Assembly (NCBI RefSeq): GCF_000002425.4
Contig: NC_037260.1
Coordinates: 15,421,372 to 15,485,371, forward strand
DNA from: Physcomitrium patens
Taxonomy: Eukaryota; Streptophyta; Bryopsida; Funariales; Funariaceae
DNA: 64,000 bases
Direction: 5' to 3'
The translations under genes were made by a program, and so were the position numbers. The notes under the pieces are model-generated. The model did not search any database, was not told where the DNA came from, and saw nothing but the letters and a program-made list of their open reading frames with translations. Below, piece after piece: positions 29,124 to 64,000 of the stretch (the stretch's first letter is position 1; every line of letters begins with the position of its first letter).

Positions 29124-30822
29124 TATCGTAATACATGAAGTCTTGCTTGAGAATGCTACAGGCACTTGATTGTGGAAGGTAGAATGGAAATTGCAACAAC
29201 AAAATCTTAACTCTAATAGAATACTAACTAAACTGTAATTAGACCATAATAATGTTAAGCAAGCTTTAATCAAATTCAAAGAAACCTCAAAGAAATTTCA
29301 AAGAAATAATAAAAAATCTTAAAAAATTATTAGAATCATCACAAATATATCTCAAATACATCTCAATTCAATCTTAATTTAATCCTAGTTAAAATCCTAT
29401 TAGACTTCATTCAAACTTTAGGCCAAAACTAATTAAATCTTAAACCCTAAACAAATCCTAATAAAATCCTAAATCCTAAATCAAACCCTAAATCCTAAAT
29501 CCAAAACTAAATCCTAACCAAATCCTAAACCAAATTCTATCCAAACCCTAAACCAAACCCTAACCAAACCCTAAACAAATCTTAAACTAAATCCCAATCA
29601 AATTCTAAATCCTAAATCAAACCCTAATCAAATCCTAAATCCTAAATAAAACCCTAATCAAACTCTAAATCCTAAACCAAATCTTAACAAAATCCTAAAC
29701 AAACCTTAAACCTAATCCCAACCAAATCCTAAATCAAATCCTAAACCCTAAACCAAACCCTAACCAAATCCTAAACAAATCCTAGTAGTTTTTATAACTG
29801 AATTAAACCTCAATAACTAATGAATAAATCATCGATCTTAACTCAAATTTTGCACAATTCTTAAAAAATAAGTTGAAAACAAGCACAAAAAGTTTTAAAA
29901 GGATCGAAATTATCAAATAGACGATAACCTCAAAAATGTGCTTGGGTATTGGCCGGCCTCCTTCTCCAACCTTGATGCTAATCTTCCAGAGCCAATATCT
30001 TTTCTTTTCACCATTCGATTGATCTCAAAATTCTCATATACATAGAAAAATAAGTCTATTATCCTCTAATACAAATTTCACTCTAATCCAACTAGTAAAT
30101 TGCAAGAAATCTTAAAAACCCTCATTGGACCTAAAATTCTACTTTTTGAGACCTTGACTCTTTTAAACCTCAATAACCCTCAATTCAACCGTTAGATTGA
30201 GCTCAAATTTATAGTACATATTAAAAAAAACTATAACCATGGACCTAAAAAATTTCACCCATAGATCTATTACAAAACTCTTCAAATCATCCAAAACGTA
30301 AACCCTATTTTATTTCATAAAACCCAAGTCATCCAAAACAAACCTTCACTTTGCGAAGCTCTTACAAAGTCATTACAACTCCAAATCACCCAAAACCAAT
30401 GCTCATAGAAACCTTATTCAATTTGCTATCAAACCCTTTTCTCCAATTTGCAAAAGAGTCCCGAAGTCGTTGTCGAGACTTGGTTTTGTGACTCAGGATC
30501 TGATTTCGGCCCTGGTTTGTAACCGGCCCTCTCTGGGTACCAATATCTAATTTTTCTAGGTAATTTTTACTAGAATTTACTCTTAACTTCTTCCTAAAGA
30601 TTTTTATATCATTTATTTTTTCAATCTACCTTATTTTGCCTTATTTTTGGCCCTACAAAGTAAGTAGAAGCTATTTTTTCTAAAAGAGCAGCATTACTAC
30701 TAAAAGTTTTACTACCTTCTTATCTTTTATCCATATTTTTTTAATTTTTCTTTTAACTTGGATTTTCTATAATAAGATCTATATTATCATCTTTCACCAT
30801 ATAGTCGTGTTATAACACGACA
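29124..30822. repeat. 1.7-kb TG...CA-like insertion inside gag of copy B
   Basis: The right end carries the perfect palindrome GTCGTGTTATAACACGAC (30804-30821) followed by A. The left end (from TATCGTAATAC at 29124) corresponds to the TGTCGTATTAC start of the 60577-61789 unit in copy C. The gag of copy B is interrupted here. The insert includes an interstitial telomere-like block (about 29390-29790). No coding capacity is seen. It may be a solo LTR or a large non-autonomous unit, and no clear target duplication is visible. Confidence 0.55.
29390..29790. repeat. Degenerate telomere-like AAACCCTA tract
   Basis: About 400 bp made largely of CCCTAAA/ATCCTAAA variants (complement of the plant telomere repeat TTTAGGG), many with C to T changes. 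It lies within the TG...CA insertion. The equivalent unit in copy C has only scattered CCCTAA words (about 61040-61210), so the tract is an expansion particular to this copy. Confidence 0.75.
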
Positions 30823-33308
30823 GTAATATGGATTGAAATAAAAAAGTTTTTATTAATCAGTTTTAATATGAATTAAAAGATAATATCAAAGATTTATTGT
30901 TGACAATGCCAAGAGCAAATGCATTGGAGAAATTTAATACTCAAGTTATTACATGCAACAATTGACTCTTTGAAAGATACGAAGAATAAAGATTTGGTTG
31001 AAGAAGTATATGTCAAGTCATGGCAAAAACTTCTAAGTTTGTAGGAGTTCATTCATCAAAATTAGAATCTATGCTAATTAACATGATATGTTTCAAATCT
31101 CTTATTGAGCAAGAAAAGACTCAATGTTGTCAAGAAATATTGTACCTATATTATGGAGAATCTAAACACACTAATCAATATTATCTAAAGAAGCAATACA
31201 ACAACAAAATGAAGAGCATGTTTGCCAAAGAAGACAATATATTAAAAAGTCAATTTTTCTAACTATAATAAAGATCATGTGACTAAAATCTTATGCGACA
31301 CCTAACAAAGGTTCTATCTTCTCTTCAAATCTTTCACCTTGTTTTATAATAGAAATTTATGTATGAGCAAAAAATCACAAAGTCTTAGCCTTATTAGATT
31401 CAAGAATCTCAGCTTATTTTATAGATGAAGACTTTGTCAAAAAAGAAGAAATATCTTTAGTTAAAAAAACCAAACTTTTATATGTAGAAGTAATAGATGG
31501 TCATTTGTTATCTTCTAAAGATGTTACCTATGAAACTATTTTTTTAGATTTAATAACTAATAATAAAAATAGCTTAATAATATTTAATATAATTAAATTT
31601 TCTTCTAATCCAATTATTTTAGGATTATTATGGTTAAAAAAATATAATCCTAAAGTAGAATAGATTTTATATGATCTTGATTATTTTTGTAGTTTAGTCC
31701 ATATTTTTGCTAATCAAATAAAAATCCATAAGTCTAATAGATTCAAACCTCTATTGATAGGTGCAAGATCTTTCATGCGTGTAGCAAAAGAAGGGTCAAT
31801 TTTTACTATATGCCATACTTATTATTGATAGAGAAAAGATTTCAAGTCGCTTCCTAAGCCAATACCAAAATTATTAAGGTATTTTTTTTAAAAAAAAATG
31901 TAGATATTCTTCCAAATCATTGTTCCATCAATCTTTAAGAAAGAACTCAAGCACCATTTAGACCAATCTATAGCCTATTACAAAACGAGTTGGATGCACT
32001 TAAAGAATATATTGACAAGAACTTTCCTAAGAACTTCATACGCTACTCTAAATCTCCAATAAAGGCTTCTATCTTATTTATGAAGGAAAAAAATACATCT
32101 CTACAAATGTGTGTGGATTTTCAAGGATTGAACAAGATTACCATAAAAAATAGGTATCTTTTATCTTTTATTTTAAAACTTTTTGATCAACTCAATCAAG
32201 CAAAGATTTATATGAAAATACATCTACAAGGAACATGTAACTTAATATGTATTAAAGAAGGAGATGAATAAAAAACTGTATTTTAAATAAGGTATGGATA
32301 TTTCAAATATAATGTCATGTTTTTTAGACTTATAAATGCATCAATTGCTTTTTAACATCTAATGAATGATGTCATCTATAATTTTCTTTATGACTTTATT
32401 ATTTGTTACTTAAACAACATCTTAATCTATTCTAAGAATATAAAAGAGCATAAACTTTATGTTTATTGTATATTACAAAAACTAAGATATACAAGATTAT
32501 ATGCTAAGATAAAAAATTGTGTATTTCACACTATTCAAGTTGAATTCTTAAGATATATCATTTCCAACAAAGGATTAATGATGGATCCAAAGAAGATTCA
32601 AACTATTATGGATTAGAAGATTCCAAAAATAATCAAAGATGTGTAATATTTTTTAAGATTTGCTAATTACTACTAGATCTTTATTAAGATTTTTTTTTCA
32701 AATTGTGGCTCTTTTTATACATATGACATGTAAAGACAAACTTAATTAGAGCAAAGAAGCTAAAACATCTTTTGAAGCCTTGAAAATATTATTTATTTTT
32801 ACACTAATCTTTTTAAGATATTCTTTATACAAATAGACGTATTAGACTTTACTATGAATATGGTGTTATTACAAATGAGAGTAGATCATAAGCTCTATTT
32901 AATAGCTCTTTATTCCAAAATAATTTTAATAACCAAGTTTAATTATGAGATCCACAACAAAGAGCTTATTGTAATCATGGATTTATTTCAAGAATGGTGT
33001 CATTATCTAAAAGTTGCTTCTAATCTAGTCATAATATATACAAATTATAAATACTTTAAATATTTCATGTTGGTATGTATTTTGAATCATCACCAAACTT
33101 GTTGTAACATATCTTTATGAAGATTTGATTTCAAGATTACTTATCAATTCAAAATAATAAAGTTTGTCAAACGTTCTATTTAGATATTCTTATCTTGTAT
33201 AAAAAAAAAGAAGAAAATATAACTTTTGATTAATAAAAATAAATAAATAAATAAAGCCAAAAAAATTTCATCTTTAAACAATGAAAAAAATTCTCATGGA
33301 CATAGACA

Positions 33309-33850
33309 TGTAAGCCAATAATTACCTGTATAAATAAGTAGAAGTAAATAGAAGTAGATAAAATTAAGTTAATTCTATAATATCTTCTATAGAAGCTTTC
33401 TAGAAGCTTCATAGATATTTCTTTGACTTTATAGGTGTCTATAATTGATTTTTTGGGTTAGAAAAGTGGTCAACAAGTTGGCCATGTGCCACACATGTTG
33501 TTAGCTTAAAGACCAAGCTAATTATGTGGCCCTCATATAGAAAAACTTGCCTTGTAAGTTAAGGCATGTGTCCTACAAAGTCAACACATATTGAAATTCC
33601 TATAGAACATTGCCACATAGCCCTTAGTTAGATAGTATATATAGAGACAAGAATGAAGCCCTCTTCACTCTTGTCAACTCCTTTTTTGCTTCTAGTTTAG
33701 TTTCAAGAGTTTCAAGTTTCCTTGTCTTTTGACAATAAGCCATTCCAATTTCTTTTTAATATACGTACTTCCTTATTTTTATTTTGTTATTCTTTCTTTG
33801 ACACGAATTTCATTGGTTTATACATCATCTTTTAGTTCATGTCCTTGACA
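33309..33850 (+). mobile_element. Solo LTR nested in copy B
   Basis: A 542-bp LTR from TGTAAGCC to CCTTGACA, with TATATATAG near 33638 followed by a CACTCTTGTCAA start about 30 nt later. It matches the solo LTR in copy C (56419-56951, minus) closely and the LTRs of copy B more distantly. RNase H sequence of copy B ends before it and integrase sequence resumes after it. No internal region accompanies it, so it is a solo LTR. No perfect target duplication was seen. Confidence 0.75.
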
Positions 33851-52025: not shown

Positions 52026-52286
52026 GAGCTTCTCATGCACGCCGATCAGTGACACTCTACCCAGCCTTTCATCGGTATTCTTCTGCCCAGTTAGAAATGG
52101 CCCTTTTCTTCCGAACACCTAACAAAACACTAACACCTCAGTGTCATAGAGTTGAAACCACGCGAAGCAGCTCTTTGAAATCCTCGACAGGATGATCTGC
52201 GAACACAAGATAGAGAAACGATTCAGCGAAAATGCCTGGCTAAACCTCGAACAAAATTGGACGAACTAATCTCCAATAAATTTAAA

Positions 52287-55098: not shown

Positions 55099-55340
55099 GA
55101 GACTAAAGAACTCTTCAGCCTTGATTCCAATATATACTCTTATTTAGGAAGCTTCTCAAGCAACTTCTACCAACTAGGAAGCTTCTAGAAGGTTCTAGAA
55201 ACTTATCTCTAGAAGGTTCTAAGGACTATGTCCCTAACATCTTCTACTAACTAAGAAGCTTCTAGAAGGTTCCAGAGACTTGCTTCTAGAAGGTTCTAGA
55301 AACTTGTCTCTAGGAGGTTCTAAGGACTATGTCCCTAACA
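55099..55340 (-). repeat. 3' LTR of copy C (U3 preserved)
   Basis: On minus it starts TGTTAGGGAC right after the polypurine tract and matches the U3 of 62433-62828. Similarity fades shortly after the presumed RNA start (55104), so R-U5 is missing or replaced. It carries phased GAA/TTC heat-shock units at 55178-55200 (five units), 55212-55219, 55255-55272 (four) and 55284-55301 (four). A ~100-bp internal duplication is present. Confidence 0.8.
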
Positions 55341-55357
55341 TCACCCCCTCCTTTAGC
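55341..55357 (-). other. Polypurine tract of copy C
   Basis: On minus the sequence GCTAAAGGAGGGGGTGA directly abuts the TGTTAGGGAC start of the 3' LTR. This is the expected place and composition for plus-strand DNA priming in an LTR element. Confidence 0.75.
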
Positions 55358-55874: not shown

Positions 55875-56098
55875 AGCTATTGTCGAACCGGCTTAGGTTT
55901 ATGAGGATGTTGTCGATGAAACTCTTGTACCTTTTGCGGCGCATTGGCGAGATTTTCAGTTGGCTCCCACGTTCGCTCATCAATATCGTAGCCGCTCCAA
56001 TGAACAAGATACTCCAACTTGCCCCACCTTCGCCGTGAATCCAGCACCTTTTCAACCTCATATTCCTCGTGGTTCTCGATCTCAATATTAGGTGGCAG
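55875..56098 (-). other. Chromodomain of copy C
   Basis: The minus strand encodes an [11 protein letters not shown] start, a YLVHWSGY core with the aromatic residues of the histone-tail cage, and a TWEPTENL end, which is the classical chromodomain pattern. It lies C-terminal to integrase, as in chromoviruses, where it is thought to steer integration to chromatin with specific histone methylation. Confidence 0.85.
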
Positions 56099-56418
56099 AT
56101 ATTACACTCTTCCAGGAAAAGATGACTCTCGATAAGGCTCCAACAGAGAAATATGAAAGACTAGATGTACCTTCATAGAAGCCGATAATTCCAAACGGTA
56201 CGCCACTGGATTGATTTGCTTTTGGATGATAAATAGTCCCAATCTTTGATAGTCCAACTTATCACATGGTCGCTTGGTCTTGATATTCCATCGAAGAAGC
56301 CATGCTTTATCTCCAATTTTGAAAGTAGGTGCTTGATTCCGAAATTTATCTGCAGACACCTTCTGGATTCTTGAGCGGATTGTAATTGAAGCTTCAACGT
56401 ATTTTGAAGCTTTGATAA

Positions 56419-56951
56419 TGTCAAGGACAAAGACTCGATGAGGGAAAATATACAAAAAGGCTATCTCGATATAATAAGTCAAAATGTAAACAAGTAGGTA
56501 TATTAAAAGGAAACTGAAATGGCTATTGCCACAAGACAAGAAACTAAAGACTCTTGAACCTGGACTAGAAGCAAGAAAGGAGTTGACAAGAGTGAAGAAG
56601 CCTTCACTCTTGTCTCTATATATACTATCTAACTAGGGGCTACGTGGCGACGTTCTATAGGACCTCCAATATGTGTTGACTTTGTAGGATACATGCCTTG
56701 ACTTACAAGGCAAGTTTTTCTGCGTGTGGGCCACATAGTTAGCTTGATCTTCAAGCTAACAACATGTGTGGCACATGGCCAACTTGTTGACCACGTTTCT
56801 AATCCAAAAAGTCAATTAAAGACACCTATGAAGTCAAAGCAGCGTCTAGGAAGTTTCTAGGAAGCTTCTATATTAAATATTATAGAATTAACTTACTTTT
56901 ATCTACTTTTACTTACTTCTACCTATTTCTATATGTAATTATTAGCTTACA
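56419..56951 (-). mobile_element. Solo LTR nested in the integrase region of copy C
   Basis: A 533-bp LTR, on minus from TGTAAGCTAATAATTAC to GTCCTTGACA. It has a TATATATAG box and a CACTCTTGTCAA start (reverse complement at 56583-56594). Integrase catalytic sequence lies on its right and integrase C-terminal sequence on its left. It is the best-preserved member of the family that includes 33309-33850 and, more distantly, the LTRs of copy B. No internal region is present. Flanks (ATCA-like on both sides) do not give a perfect 5-bp duplication. Confidence 0.8.
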
Positions 56952-59900
56952 TGATTATGGCCGTGACAGATAGTTGTTTCGCAAATCCTTCAGCTGCTGG
57001 ATTGTTATTTGTTGACGGACTCAATAAATCAAGCTTCGGATGATACCCAAAGTTGGAAAAGAATAGTGTGTATTGAGTCGACGCATGGAGGGTGTTGTCA
57101 TATGCAAACTCAGCTAGCAGCAGATATGTGGTCCAATCGTCTTGCTGATAGTTGATGCTGCATCGTAAGTATTGTTCCAAGACTTAGTTCACCCGTTCCG
57201 TTTGGCCGTCAGTTTGAGGATGAAAAGCCAAAGAAAGCTTGATATCCACCTTCAGTATCTCAAAGAGAGATCTCCAAAACTTTGATACGAACTGGGTTCA
57301 TCAATCTGATACGATATCATCTGGTAGTCCATGATATCGATACACATTATCGAGAAAGAGCCTTGTTGTGACTTCACTAGATGATGTCTTCTTCCAAGGG
57401 ACAAAGTACACCATCTTTGTAAGCCAATCTACTACGACAAAGATGCTGTCAAATGAGTTCGATGATGGCAGGTCCGTGATGAAGCCCATGGAAATTGAAG
57501 ACCATGGTCGACGTGGAATCGGCAATGGCTGTAGGAGTCCATAAGGGCGATGCCGAGGATTCTTAAATCTTCAATGGATGTTGCAGGAGAGGACAAAATC
57601 TTTCACATCCTTCCACATTTGGGGCCACCAAAAATCTCGAGAAATAAGCTCTAAGGTTTTGTTGAATCCAAAATGTCCCGCAGTTGGAAAATCGTGGCGA
57701 GATTGAAGAACTCGGAGTCGTGCTGGTCCTTTTGGGATATATAACTGCTCTTCAAAGTATAAAAGATCTCCCTCCACCTTGAACTTGTTGTCATTGGCAC
57801 GCTGCTTAATATCAATGGCTACTGAATCTTCAATGGTCATGGTACGTACCTGATTCAGGAAGTCAGCATCAATTGGCACAATAGTAGCGCAAAGCTGAAA
57901 TTGCTCTGGCTTCAACAATGTCGTACATTGTTGATCAAACGCTGCTTCTCCAGCCTTTGGTACAAGATACGATCTCCTCGATAAGGCATCAGATAGTCCT
58001 TGCTGCTTTTCAGGTCGATAAGTGATAACAAAATCGAACCTAGATTGCAACATACTCCACTGAGCTTGACGTCGATTTAGAACTCGAGCTGACATGAAAT
58101 ACTCCAAATTCTTGTGATCTGTGTATACGGTCACTAGGTGTGTAGCTCCTTCAAGAAAGTGACGCCATTCTTGGAAAGAATCCACTATAGCAAGAAGTTT
58201 CTTATCGTGGATCTCATAATTGATTTCAGCAACAAAGAACTTTCGAGAATAGAATGCAACCAGATGGAGCTTCTTGTCTTCTCCTATTTGTGATAGTACA
58301 GCTCTCAAAGCAAAATCCGAAGCATCAGTTTCTAAATAAAAGGCCTTTGTAAAGTCTGGATGTACCAAGATTGGAGCCGCAGTAAATGCGGTCTTCAGGG
58401 CTTGAAACGCCTTCTCCGCTAGAGGTCACCATTCCAGCTTATCCGTGCATGTCAACCGAGTGAGAAGAGCAACAACTTGAGAGTAATTCTTGATGAAGAT
58501 CTGATAGAAGTTGGCAAAACCAAGAGAGCATTGTACGTCTCTAACCGTCTTTGGAACCTCTGAGGACACGATTGCTTCCACCTTCTTGGGGTCCATCTTC
58601 AAGCCTTACGTAGTTGCAACAAATCCCAAAAACTCCATCTCTATTTAGTGAAATAAACACTTCTCCAATTTGACATATAGTCCTCGCTCGCGTAGTTTCC
58701 CCAAGACCAAACGAATGTGCTTTTCATGCTCTGCCTTGTTTTTGGAGAATATCAAAATGTCATCTAAATAGATGACAACAAAATCATCAAGGTGCCCTCG
58801 GAAAATGTCATTCATCATATCTTGAAAGACCGGTGGAGCATTGGTAAGACCAAAGGGCATGACATTATACTCAAAATGGCCATACCTTGTACGGAACGTT
58901 GTCTTCCACTCATCTCGTTCCTTGATTCGTACGAGGTTGTAAGCTCTCCTTAGATCAATTTTTGTAAAGATCCTTGCATGTCCAAGTTGTTCTAAGAGAC
59001 CAAAAATCAAGGGTAACGGATAACATTTCTTCTTTATTACCTTGTTGAGGCCTCGATAGTCCATGCACATCCACAACGAGCCATCTTTCTTCTTCACAAA
59101 TAAGATGGGTGCTCCAGCTTACGATTTTGAATGACAGATGAAGTTCTTTGCTAGATTTTTGTCGATGTACTTCTGCAACTCCGCCAACTCCATCTGCGAT
59201 AGATTGTAGATTGGGCCAAAAAACGGTTGTGTTCCTTCCTACAAGTCTATGGCGCAATCATATGATCGGTGTTTTGGTACCATGTCGGCATTCTTCTTTT
59301 GAAACACGTCTTTAAAATCTTTATATTGCTCAGGTATACTTGTTGTCGAGATCTTCTCTTCGGTAGTTGGAGCCGCATAAATGACAAACGGTGTGCCTTC
59401 CTTGGACGATCTTATAAATGCTCTTGCTGTAATGAATAAGGATTTCTCTATTCGGGATTTTCTACTAGACTTGCTTTTGGGTGGTTTTGTGGGAAAGGTC
59501 ATCTTCCGCAACCTCCAATCTATGGATGGGTTATGCTTTTTCAACCAGGAAAGACCAAGAATAACAAGATTTGATGGGGTTCTAATAATATTGAAAATAA
59601 TATGACTACTATGGCCCTTAAACGTCACTTCTATAGGTTTTGATTCATGGGTGACACTACCAGACAATAAAGGTCGTCCATCTATAACCTCAATGTGAAT
59701 AGGTTTGGATTTTTGTACTAAAGGGATCTTATGACACTTCGTAAATTCTTCATCTAAGAAACAAGCAAATGCTCCTGAATCTAATAATGCTAAGTTTCTT
59801 AGTTTTTGAGGGCAAATAAGCAAAGAGATTGTAAAGCAAAGGGCAGATTGAGTGGAAAGAAAGGAACCTGGTTGTTGTTGCGATATTTCACTGTCCAGCC

Positions 59901-60576
59901 ACACGGTTCCTATTGTGGCTGGGCATTCTCGTTTTCCTGAACAAACTCGCCCGTAGACCTGACTATATGTCGGTTTTGCTTCTTGGGGCAGTTTCCAACT
60001 GTGTGGCCTTTTTTACCACAATACAAGCATAGACCTTCGTCCATACGCCGCTTTTTTTCTTCTAGGATAAGGGATTTTATACGTACTGCATCAATTTGCA
60101 TGTCTTCTACCTCTGAATGTGAATTCACACTGCTTGCCGATATAGTTGGGGCGTGGCAAACCATATGTTGTCTTGAACGTTGGTCTTGGCGGCGTTGGAA
60201 TAGGCAGTTATCGCACTTCACAGCTTGGCTAGTATCTTCATTGAGCGTTTGTGGATCAGGAAGAGTTAACAGCAAATCCTTCACATCATTCCTTAAACCC
60301 CAATAGAATTGACTCATCAACGCTTCTTCATCCCAATTGATGTCGCATGCTAATTGCCTGAAGTCCGATGCATAGACTGATGTAGAGCGCATCCCTTGTC
60401 GTAGTGACCGGATCTTTGTTGTAGCCCATCGAACCTTATCATGTTCTCGAAATGCTTTCGCAAACGCCTCCAAAAAGGTTTCAAAGTTGTTTAGTATGGA
60501 CGATTGTTTCTCAAACAAAGGAGCAAACTATGATAGAGCTTGCCCTGTAAATAAGGTTCCAACAAGCCCAATACTT

Positions 60577-61789
60577 TGTCGTATTACGTGCTTTCCTGCT
60601 CGAGAACGCGTCGGGTGTCTAGTTGTAGAAGGTAGTATGGAGATTCGCTAATATTCAAGCAGTTTATTGATTTTTGATTGTTGGAATATAAACAACTGTT
60701 AGAATATACCATAAATCTATACGGATGTCCTTCAACTGCTCGTCGAAATCCTTTTTGCCCCAACCTGTAGGTCTCTAGACGTTAAAGAGAACCTCGAACA
60801 ACCCAAACTGCTAATCTTTGATACCGCTTTATACTCGCGATCTTGTATCCACTGATTGTCTCGTTAGATTAACCCAATAAATTTCATTCACTCCGCATAC
60901 TCAATCCTATAGACACCCTTTTAATTCTTCATCACAGACGTAACTCGATTTCACAAAACAGTCAAGAACAATCACACCCACTTCATTAAAAATCCCGATT
61001 CCAGTACAACACTTCGACTATTCAGCAACGATTGCCTCAGTCTTCCCAAAACCCTATGAAGAAAAAAAACCTAATCTCTGTCTTTTTTTTCCGCCCCAAA
61101 GCATGAAGCTAGCTCTCCGATCCTTCTCCAAAAACTTATTCTCTCCCCTTTCATTTCTTAACCTATCTTCCCCTTTAACCCTAATTCTCCCCTCTTTCAA
61201 ACCCTAGCCTCTGAATTTCTTCAATCTTCCGTCTTGGATCCAGAATTGGCTCCTGTTGTCAGAGCTTTTTCCTCCGTTTTTATCTTTAAGAGATCTTTTT
61301 ACTGAAAACAACGTTCCCTGAAACGGCACAAAGAACAGGACAGCCTGAAACAGAATCGAAACCCCGTAATCGGGACCACATTGAGTCACCCGACCAATTC
61401 AGGTCTCATATTGGCTAAGAGGCCCGTAGTAAGACCTGGATGTTCCCGTAATTGAACCACATTGGGTTGCCCGACCAAGTCAGGTCTCATATTGGGTAAG
61501 AGGACCGTAATAGGACCTGGATTGGATGTCTTGAAATTGGATCCAATTGGCTCTTCAAACCAGGTTCACCCGTCGTTGAATTAGTCCTTTTCCTTTCTGT
61601 TGACTCCCGTTATTGGAATCGAACGGAGCATTTCAGTATGCCCCGGCTGACTGTAACGGGGTGACTGATCCTGGCCTCTCAGTATTTGCACTAGAATTGG
61701 TCGTTGCTCCCAATATTCGAAGTAACTGAACATTAATAAAAGTCCCCTTTCTTTATATTTTCACGATATACTCGTGTTACAACACGACA
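60577..61789. repeat. 1.2-kb TG...CA insertion in gag of copy C
   Basis: On plus it starts TGTCGTATTACG and ends GTTACAACACGACA, so both ends are TGTCG/CGACA inverted. The right end forms a hairpin (TCGTGTT, 2-nt loop, AACACGA). The interior has no coding capacity and contains two ~80-bp tandem units (about 61363-61520). Gag sequence lies on both sides. It is related to 29124-30822 in copy B and about 5055-5560. A large solo LTR is the likeliest reading; a non-autonomous DNA element is possible. Confidence 0.6.
61363..61520. repeat. Two ~80-bp tandem units in the 1.2-kb insertion
   Basis: Both units read CCGTAAT, then ACCACATTG, then CCCGACCAA, then TCAGGTCTCATATTGG and end in a TAAGAGG...AGACCTGGAT-like or GACCTGGAT word. 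The units differ at about one base in seven. No function is inferred. Confidence 0.65.
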
Positions 61790-62169
61790 ACGTGACTCCT
61801 CCGTTGGATAGCGTTCGGGTTGTAAAATTGTTATCAACCTAATTTGATTGACGAATCTTAGAAACTTGGTACGCGTACCATCGAACTTGTTTGGAAGGCT
61901 AACTTAGGGCTCCTTATGTTGTAGAACCAACGGTGCTTGTCGAACTTGAGGCAAAATTGCTTCTCCAAGTACAGAAATTTGAGGCTGGTGCAACCTAGAT
62001 CGTGCCATCCCAAATGCTCCATCATTATGAAGCCTTGCTACAATTCTTCTAATCTCTGCTGTTCTTTGCGATAACGTAGCGAGGGCATTTATGATAGCAT
62101 CCAACTTAGACTCCGAACTTTCCGTCATACTAATGTTTTGGCCTCCGGCCATTCTAAAAGAATGACAGA

Positions 62170-62419: not shown

Positions 62420-62430
62420 AGTCTCGACAA
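62420..62430 (-). other. Self-priming primer-binding site of copy C
   Basis: On minus TTGTCGAGACT begins 2 nt after the end of the 5' LTR. It is the exact 11-nt complement of the presumed RNA 5' end AGTCTCGACAA (62570 down to 62560), which starts about 32 nt after the TATA box. Tf1 and sushi-type chromoviruses prime reverse transcription with an 11-nt piece of their own RNA 5' end in exactly this way. I find no match to the usual initiator-tRNA-Met primer site. Confidence 0.75.
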
Positions 62431-62432
62431 AC

Positions 62433-62828
62433 TGTCACGGACACAGAAATACAGACTCGAGATCTAACAAGAAGTTCGAGAAGAACTGGCAAGAACTAGA
62501 TTAATCAGATGAATATAAGAACAACACGAGAGAGGTGAGCTAGAGCTCCAAGAAATGTGTTGTCGAGACTGAAGAATTCTTCAGCCTCGATTCTAATATA
62601 TACTCCTATTTAGGAAGCTTCTCAAGCAACTTCTACCAATTATGAAGCTTCTAGAAGGTTCCAGAGACTTGCTTCTAGAAGGTTCTAGAAACTTATCTCT
62701 AGAAGGTTCTAAAGACTATCCTTAACATCTTCTACCAACTAAAAAGCTTCTAGAAGGTTCCAAAGACTTGCTTCTAGAAGGTTCTAGAAACTTGTCTCTA
62801 GGAGGTTCTAAGGACTATGTCCCTAACA
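62433..62828 (-). repeat. 5' LTR of copy C with heat-shock-element array
   Basis: On minus it runs from TGTTAGGGAC to CCGTGACA, 396 bp. U3 is 62571-62828, with phased GAA/TTC arrays at 62644-62661 (four units), 62673-62690 (four), 62702-62709 (two), 62748-62760 (three) and 62772-62789 (four), plus two units at 62614-62621. A TATATAT box lies at about 62595-62601, and the presumed RNA start is 62570. A ~100-bp internal duplication in U3 doubled the HSE content. Confidence 0.8.
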
Positions 62829-64000
62829 ATGTGTGAGGCACAAGAGGGTGTCCATGCAATGAAAGGAGGTCATCTATCTACCAATTTCATAAAAAAAGAG
62901 AGAAATTAGTAACTTTTAAGGCTTGTTGTTGATTGAAATATTTATATATATATATTTATATATATATATATATATATATAACCTTTTTTACATGGCTTAA
63001 TAATAGGAAGTTTTTTGTTACCAAAAAACAACTTTAAAGGGCCATGGTACAAAAGCCCTATGAAGGTCTCATCTTGCATGAGGAAAAAAACTCTTGTATT
63101 AAAGCTTTGGTCTTTGGAAATGTTGTAAAATGAAACGAGGTTATGAAATAAAGTAAAATCATAGTTTATTTGTAGCTTATTTTTTAAAATATTATAATTA
63201 TGAAAGATATATATACATATATAGAAACACATACATATTTATATTCAAGATATCACTATTTGGAAACAACTTTATTTTTACCTCATAAGAAAAAATTATG
63301 TAAACTTTTTTTTTCTTATGACCTTTAGCAAGATGTTTCTAAATGTGGAGCCAACCAAGTAAAATATTCGATTTTAATCAATCACACACTTTGAAAGTTG
63401 GGTATCAAATATACTTATAACCTACTGGAATGTATAGTAATTACATGAAGAAATCGTGTTCATTTTGGCAACAACACTGATTGTTGTGTTCACATGCAGT
63501 AGCTTTCTTTAGACCATTTAAAATTTAACTATCGTACGTGCAAAACGAATCATCTAAGAAATTTTGACTTACGATTTTTGTATTTGATTCTAAGTTTTTA
63601 TAGAGAATAAAAGATGTGCAAATAGACTAGGAAGATTGTTATTAAAAACCATGACTTCAGGGAGGATCGGGTCACACCACAAAGCATATTTGACATAGTT
63701 TATCTCAACCAAACGCATCTGCATCTAACCTATGGCACAATATTCTAAGCTGGACCTAAACCCTAAACCTCATGTAAGTCGATCACTAGGATGGACGTTG
63801 GACAACCTCCATATCCTGAAACCCCAGTGAGTATATTACTAAAATGTACGCAGGACAGACACTAACACGTCGCCCGAATGCGCACTCAAATCAGCACACC
63901 TTATCTAGATATACATTCAAAGGCTAAAAAGGTCTTCTAATGGACCAAGTAATTACAGGCTTAGAATTCAGGATCAATGAGCAACTAAGCCAAAATATAA
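62829..64000. other. AT-rich flank, nothing recognised
   Basis: A TA microsatellite lies at about 62943-62980. From about 63640 the sequence becomes GC-moderate again, which may be the edge of another gene or element beyond the window. No ORF or repeat could be assigned. Confidence 0.4.

Follow-up and report, generated by a model that had tools for sequence, protein, structure and literature searches.

Phased heat-shock-element arrays in the LTRs of a probable Tcn1-type chromovirus family of the moss Physcomitrium patens

Why would the LTR of a moss retrotransposon carry a dense, strictly spaced array of heat-shock-element (HSE) units upstream of its TATA box? The question arises in a 64,000-nt stretch of Physcomitrium patens DNA (hereafter the window), in which an earlier note had described runs of alternating GAA and TTC in the U3 of an LTR and had taken them for strong HSF-binding sites.

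Anatomy of the array and its element

We located 19 alternating GAA and TTC units in exact 5-bp steps at 62614–62789 (176 bp; no strand assigned), arranged in six runs of 2, 4, 4, 2, 3 and 4 units in plus-strand order. Runs of four occupy 62644–62661, 62673–62690 and 62772–62789, a run of three 62748–62760, and runs of two 62614–62621 and 62702–62709; all six were recovered where the earlier note had placed them, with the same total of 19. Within 62565–62828, 15 units fell in arrays of at least three, a score reached by none of 5000 first-order Markov shuffles (null mean 0.026), and no such arrays were found in this interval at other spacings (3, 4 and 6–15 bp). With the 5-bp spacing alone enriched, the description of the array as far beyond chance was borne out.

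The array lies in the 5′ LTR (62433–62828, minus strand; 396 nt, TGTTAGGG...TGACA) of an element whose strand was read from its open frames and Pfam domains. The LTR limits are common, within 7 nt, to 30 genomic copies including the window's; in 15 of these the sequence continues past the LTR into the primer site, and the other 15 end with the LTR. Because the element is on the minus strand, the array stands upstream of the TATA box TATATATTAG (62593–62602, minus strand) on that strand; the earlier placement relative to a TATA box was thus right once its orientation is corrected (62602 to 62593). An AT run at 62938–62980 was rejected as a TATA box, being a simple repeat outside the LTR of a minus-strand element. 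The predicted RNA 5′ end, AGTCTCGACAA at the start of R (62560–62570, minus strand), was placed by its complementarity to the primer-binding site and by its distance from the TATA box, which precedes it by 32–33 nt. Measured from this predicted start, the array lies 44 to 219 bp upstream, beyond the TATA box. The putative self-priming primer-binding site TTGTCGAGACT (62420–62430, minus strand) begins 2 nt past the LTR end and is exactly complementary to nt 1–11 of the predicted RNA. A palindrome straddles the predicted start (62563–62591 in the window and 108–136 in the related contig L001, as a BLAST inverted match; by eye also near the predicted starts of the relatives L155, L157 and L158), which leaves a near copy of the primer-binding site at the end of U3. 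The U3 limits proposed earlier (62571–62828, minus strand) agree with the position at which the family LTR begins (62828) and with the predicted RNA start (62570). This U3 holds a tandem duplication of ~99 bp, and the 5′ LTR also a 24-bp subrepeat; since the arrays are made of repeated palindromic units plus one tandem duplication, part of the unit count reflects copying rather than separate gain.

Downstream, Pfam matched minus-strand fragments of gag (Retrotrans_gag, 59910–60518), protease (RVP_2, 59239–59904) and reverse transcriptase (RVT_1, 58645–59097), followed by RNase H with the integrase zinc-binding domain H2C2 (57571–58368), an open frame with a Tf2-1-type SH3 domain (56102–56539) and, after a stop, a chromodomain (55880–56101; PF00385, E 1.2e-17). 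An insertion of ~1.2 kb (60570–61790, no strand assigned) splits gag at a place where L001 lacks it, and contains an 81-bp tandem repeat (61363–61522). The integrase region is interrupted by a nested minus-strand LTR of another family (L157 type, 85%; 56419–56953). Beyond a polypurine tract read from the sequence (AAAGGAGGGGG, 55344–55354, minus strand) lies the 3′ LTR (55099–55340, minus strand), which has no R-U5, as homology stops 6 nt into R; this end (55099) falls almost exactly at the predicted RNA start. Its 17 phased units form runs of 2, 5, 2, 4 and 4 over 55148–55301, including one run of five. The two LTRs were said to carry the same arrays; they are similar in phasing and differ in number (17 against 19 units) because of a gap of ~24 bp.

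With its split gag, nested LTR, stops in the frames and shortened 3′ LTR, the window copy is dead: it cannot be autonomous and is too damaged to move by itself. Divergence of its LTR pair depends on the alignment, at 12 differences in 240 sites by BLAST and 21 in 242 by MAFFT (K2P 0.094), and together with the rate of 9e-9 quoted in PMC7466625 it suggests an age of roughly 3–5 million years.

The order gag, protease, reverse transcriptase, RNase H, integrase is that of Ty3/Gypsy and not that of Copia, in which integrase precedes reverse transcriptase; within integrase, Pfam matched the zinc-binding and SH3 domains only. A chromodomain at the integrase C terminus, with the Ty3/Gypsy domain order and the Tf2-1-type SH3 domain, supported the earlier view that the U3 belongs to a chromovirus. 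Complementarity of the self-priming kind was found in the window (11 nt), L001 (12 nt), L155, whose pair is the window's own, and L157, whose pair has other letters yet still matches over 11 nt; in L158 the pair reported by the script is probably spurious, and a 10/11 match was seen by eye only. The available text of PMC6317226 predicts self-priming in most moss and club-moss elements of the Tcn1 clade, and in plant chromoviruses of no other group. The window element shares with that clade the chromodomain, the self-priming site and the moss host, and differs in its HSE array, of which the same text makes no mention. We therefore regard it as probably of Tcn1 (Tf1/Sushi) type, an assignment by features (chromodomain, self-priming, SH3 type, host).

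Recurrence in copies, relatives and genome

Searching the genome (470 Mb in 101 contigs) with the U3 gave 2353 first-look candidates, of which 40 were scored; 40 of 44 rows, one of them the window's own, match at 94–100% across 262 or more of the 264 bases, and four are partial. All 30 copies selected for U3 similarity, again with the window, carry 19–23 phased units per LTR (median 22), 12–19 of which (median 16) stand in arrays of at least three. At spacings of 3 to 10 bp other than 5, no array of three was found in any of these copies. Half of them (15/30) show the run pattern 2, 4, 4, 2, 4, 4, 2 under one parse, six copies being cut short or parsed otherwise. L149 and L150 have a further partial repeat.

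Because U3 similarity had guided that choice, further copies were sampled by their primer site, which gave 22 exact junctions within the initial 2.97 Mb of contig C1, a sample biased to less decayed copies. A perfect TTC-first four-unit HSE lies 100–600 bp upstream of 18 of the 22 (chance 1.6%). Counting either the 5′ or the 3′ LTR position, 20/22 elements have a four-unit HSE, and 2/22 have none listed in either LTR. The earlier note had proposed looking for family copies without phased units; that test returned units in every copy of the first sample and four-unit HSEs at the 18 junctions of the second. The array is a family trait. Across the genome, primer junctions with at most two mismatches number 3171, against 10 for the reversed pattern, a count that includes L155-type elements, which share the junction. 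Four or more adjacent nGAAn units, the ONSEN-type hallmark, were present in the LTRs of the window and of the family copies. Such arrays fit the published "4P" type in the available text of PMC5059998, and to that extent the term strong HSF-binding site appears apt as a prediction from sequence.

Relatives with a partly different U3 (L001, L155 and L158) also carry phased arrays. Twenty 10-kb stretches of contigs C1–C3 (200 kb) yielded 14 arrays of at least three units: five in U3s homologous to the window's (all L155), four in L158 and five elsewhere. Five were four-unit arrays, three in L155 and two in L158. The L158 arrays lie upstream of a Tcn1-like protease match, in a sequence unlike the window's U3; the TATA-like box and R-like start that follow them are the grounds for reading them as U3, and no LTR pair was found in the L158 stretch. 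Contig searches for relatives gave two, L002, which matches in pol only, and L001, which matches the window pol at 82%. L001 comes from a metagenome bin labelled cyanobacterium, to which it is evidently foreign. Its 128-bp U3 has arrays of 3, 3 and 2 units (six units in arrays of three were reached by 0/20000 shuffles), one of the three-unit arrays standing at a place without such an array in the window. Viral contigs scanned for the array (two contigs) and for the start-site motif (at least 120 contigs) included none that matched the two element pieces compared, and an RNase H protein scan of viral contigs gave no matches. Next to a replication-like gene, the phage-like contigs L003 (~6410) and L004 (~3608) have TTCTAGAA-type units in runs, perhaps iterons.

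A sister family, the L157 type, shares with the window family the type of TATA box and primer site. None of 10 LTR copies read showed a four-unit array: the longest run is two units in nine of them and three in the one that lies in the window. This LTR (84%, 33294–33850) carries its three-unit array at 33398–33410, seemingly a late gain. The L157 type is seemingly the commoner family: its query, twice as long, gave 9890 first-look LTR candidates, that of the window family 2353.

Genome-wide, the pattern TTCnnGAAnnTTCnnGAA, which covers TTC-first four-unit HSEs only, occurs 8121 times, against 114 for its reversal and 174 for the same units with 3-bp gaps. The reversal of the 3-bp-gap pattern, AAGNNNCTTNNNAAGNNNCTT, gave 1533 per strand, above the 174 of its forward form; another phased repeat must then be frequent in the genome, which makes that reversal unfit as background. 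Of the 8121, the listing covers 94 distinct sites from the first 2.97 Mb of C1. The sequence TTCTAGAA(GG or CC)TTCTAGAA accounts for 78 of them, and 81 have another listed site within 220 bp or at 3.3–6.4 kb (chance values 1.4% and 18%), as would be expected of LTR repeats and LTR pairs. Inside an element with an exact primer site lie 41 of the 94; the remainder may belong to related families, solo LTRs or decayed copies. From this listed part, rather than from a whole-genome classification, we infer that LTRs hold most four-unit HSEs of the genome.

In 27 copies (three of odd length being left out), variability at HSE-core sites was roughly half that of U3 sites matched for base and context (0.0148 and 0.0309, respectively; 102 of 10000 permutations were as low). 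The difference sits in A and CHH sites, T sites being equal (0.0095 and 0.0097), and the support from this test is modest. The U3 of one copy (L135) has 2 CG and 4 CHG among 100 C/G positions, against 6 CG and 11 CHG among 59 in its R-U5. LTRs of two ONSEN copies have neither CG nor CHG sites in the available text of PMC3907296, and the scarcity of such sites in U3 may help the moss element escape symmetric methylation.

The proposed promoter function and its rivals

We put at about 70% the probability that the array serves the LTR promoter of a Tcn1-type chromovirus family of P. patens as its upstream activating region; a regulatory role is a prediction well supported by form and recurrence. 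Host HSF trimers would bind the arrays cooperatively, and bound HSF would raise element RNA whenever HSF is active, in heat (the presumed drive) or other protein-damaging stress. In the available text of PMC5059998, four adjacent units are the strongest published type of heat-responsive element and go with heat induction in Copia elements. We count for this reading the phasing, the array's presence in 30/30 copies and at 18/22 primer sites, the genome-wide excess, the relatives' arrays and the lower HSE-core variability. Counted against it are the repression of the RLG1 family by heat (PMC7466625), the 2/22 elements without a listed HSE, the modest conservation test, the placement of 41/94 listed sites in primer-site elements, and the copying within the unit count.

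GAA and TTC are common triplets, and the window has two further three-unit arrays (33398–33410 and 58237–58249), so a match by chance in AT-rich DNA deserves mention; the shuffles (0/5000) and the genome-wide excess over two control patterns refute such an origin, leaving it next to no probability. A harder case to dismiss, though still improbable, is that the arrays are a non-regulatory by-product of tandem duplication of TTCTAGAA, a palindromic XbaI-like unit, and persist for replication or structural reasons. The 99-bp duplication and 24-bp subrepeat of the 5′ LTR and the partial repeat in L149 and L150 are what such copying would leave; however, enrichment is confined to the 5-bp spacing, phased arrays also occur in L001 and L158, whose U3 sequences differ, and the L157 type, with a like TATA box and primer site, lacks four-unit arrays.

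Somewhat more weight, while remaining unlikely, goes to the idea that HSFs bind the arrays and serve basal, developmental or ABA-linked expression, or that repressor-type HSFs do so, with heat bringing no rise in RNA. A survey of P. patens transposable elements found that heat induces one Gypsy family, RLG2 (529 complete copies), and represses another, RLG1 (5092 complete copies; PMC7466625). RLG1 has a chromodomain and is the most abundant Gypsy family of this moss; unstressed protonema expresses it and heat shock represses it (PMC7466625). The window family, with its 3171 primer junctions, is likewise abundant and could be part of what is called RLG1. That identification by copy number is weakened, though not dropped, by the commoner L157 type: none of 10 copies has a four-unit array, and its number is the better fit to RLG1. 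Heat and ABA, in turn, strongly induce RLG2 (PMC7466625), so heat-driven Gypsy elements do exist in P. patens. Both are Gypsy LTR families of the same genome as the window family, which may be one of them or neither and was compared with them by copy number; the term HSE is absent from the main text of PMC7466625. Public heat RNA-seq of P. patens exists and was used in that study.

Taking the activating-region reading further, we tentatively suggest, as a possibility that we consider doubtful, that a few HSE-bearing Tcn1-type families wrote most of the strong HSF-binding sites of the moss genome, so that in heat LTR arrays and hsp promoters compete for HSF. If this were true, thousands of arrays would act as stress-inducible retrotransposon promoters, as a genome-wide HSF sink and as heat-responsive control for nearby genes. 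Should HSF bind, a retrotransposon would own a large share of the strong HSF sites in a model plant, with a bearing on the dosing and rewiring of the heat response. A moss genome that holds both chromovirus LTRs with ~22 units and a sister family lacking four-unit arrays offers a natural experiment on array function.

Known heat-responsive elements and the surroundings of the copy

The available texts of PMC3907296 and PMC5059998 establish four-unit heat-responsive elements in LTRs, and their link to heat induction, for Copia elements; that of PMC10881000 reports the four-unit motif in one further family. The Brassicaceae Copia families ONSEN (ATCOPIA78), COPIA37, TERESTRA and ROMANIAT5 share with the window family an LTR promoter with 3P or 4P heat-responsive elements, and ONSEN also a 4P element that arose by duplication and LTRs without CG or CHG sites, of which the window-family U3 has few (PMC3907296, PMC5059998). 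In those texts, however, the elements of this group are Copia, have a single 4P element in each LTR, where the window family typically has four perfect four-unit arrays, and have a demonstrated HSF dependence, which for the window family is a prediction. The HSE-driven plant LTRs that we found in the literature, as far as its available text goes, are all Copia elements of flowering plants.

Outside Copia, heat-responsive plant Ty3/Gypsy elements are reported in the available text of PMC8656106 and PMC9780303. Moso bamboo PHRE1 and PHRE2 share with the window family their Ty3/Gypsy class and plant host, and their LTR activity under heat has been studied, while the term HSF is absent from the main text of PMC8656106 as available. 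In the accessible part of PMC12810828, Cryptococcus TCN3 (Ty3/Gypsy) and TCN12 (an LTR retrotransposon) carry putative HSEs in the LTR and are mobile mainly at 37 °C; they are fungal and have two and one putative HSEs, against 19–23 phased units here. Caenorhabditis Helitrons are comparable in that one transposon class holds over half of the C. elegans HSEs, and differ as DNA transposons of an animal with demonstrated HSF-1 binding (PMC6927752, available text). The earlier note knew of no precedent: among top-ranked matches in the openly licensed PMC literature, as far as their text was available, we likewise found no report of HSE arrays in a plant chromovirus, but the plant Ty3/Gypsy elements and the Cryptococcus LTRs narrow that claim. 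HSE-driven LTRs are already known in plant Copia elements, and a moss chromovirus with phased HSE arrays is a new variant.

Rfam and tRNA scans of the window gave no matches. Elsewhere the window contains a degenerate array of telomere-like CCCTAAA units (29471–29784) and CNOT3 exons. Joined into one query, these exons matched best an uncharacterized P. patens protein, at 99% identity in a local alignment spanning 37% of the query, which agrees with the moss host; a Sphagnum protein came next among named species, at 61%. The HSE-bearing 3′ LTR (55099–55340) lies ~3 kb upstream, in the same orientation, of mitochondrial-carrier-like exons on the minus strand, at 52118–51732 (Mito_carr below cut-off) and 49430–49092 (Mito_carr above cut-off).
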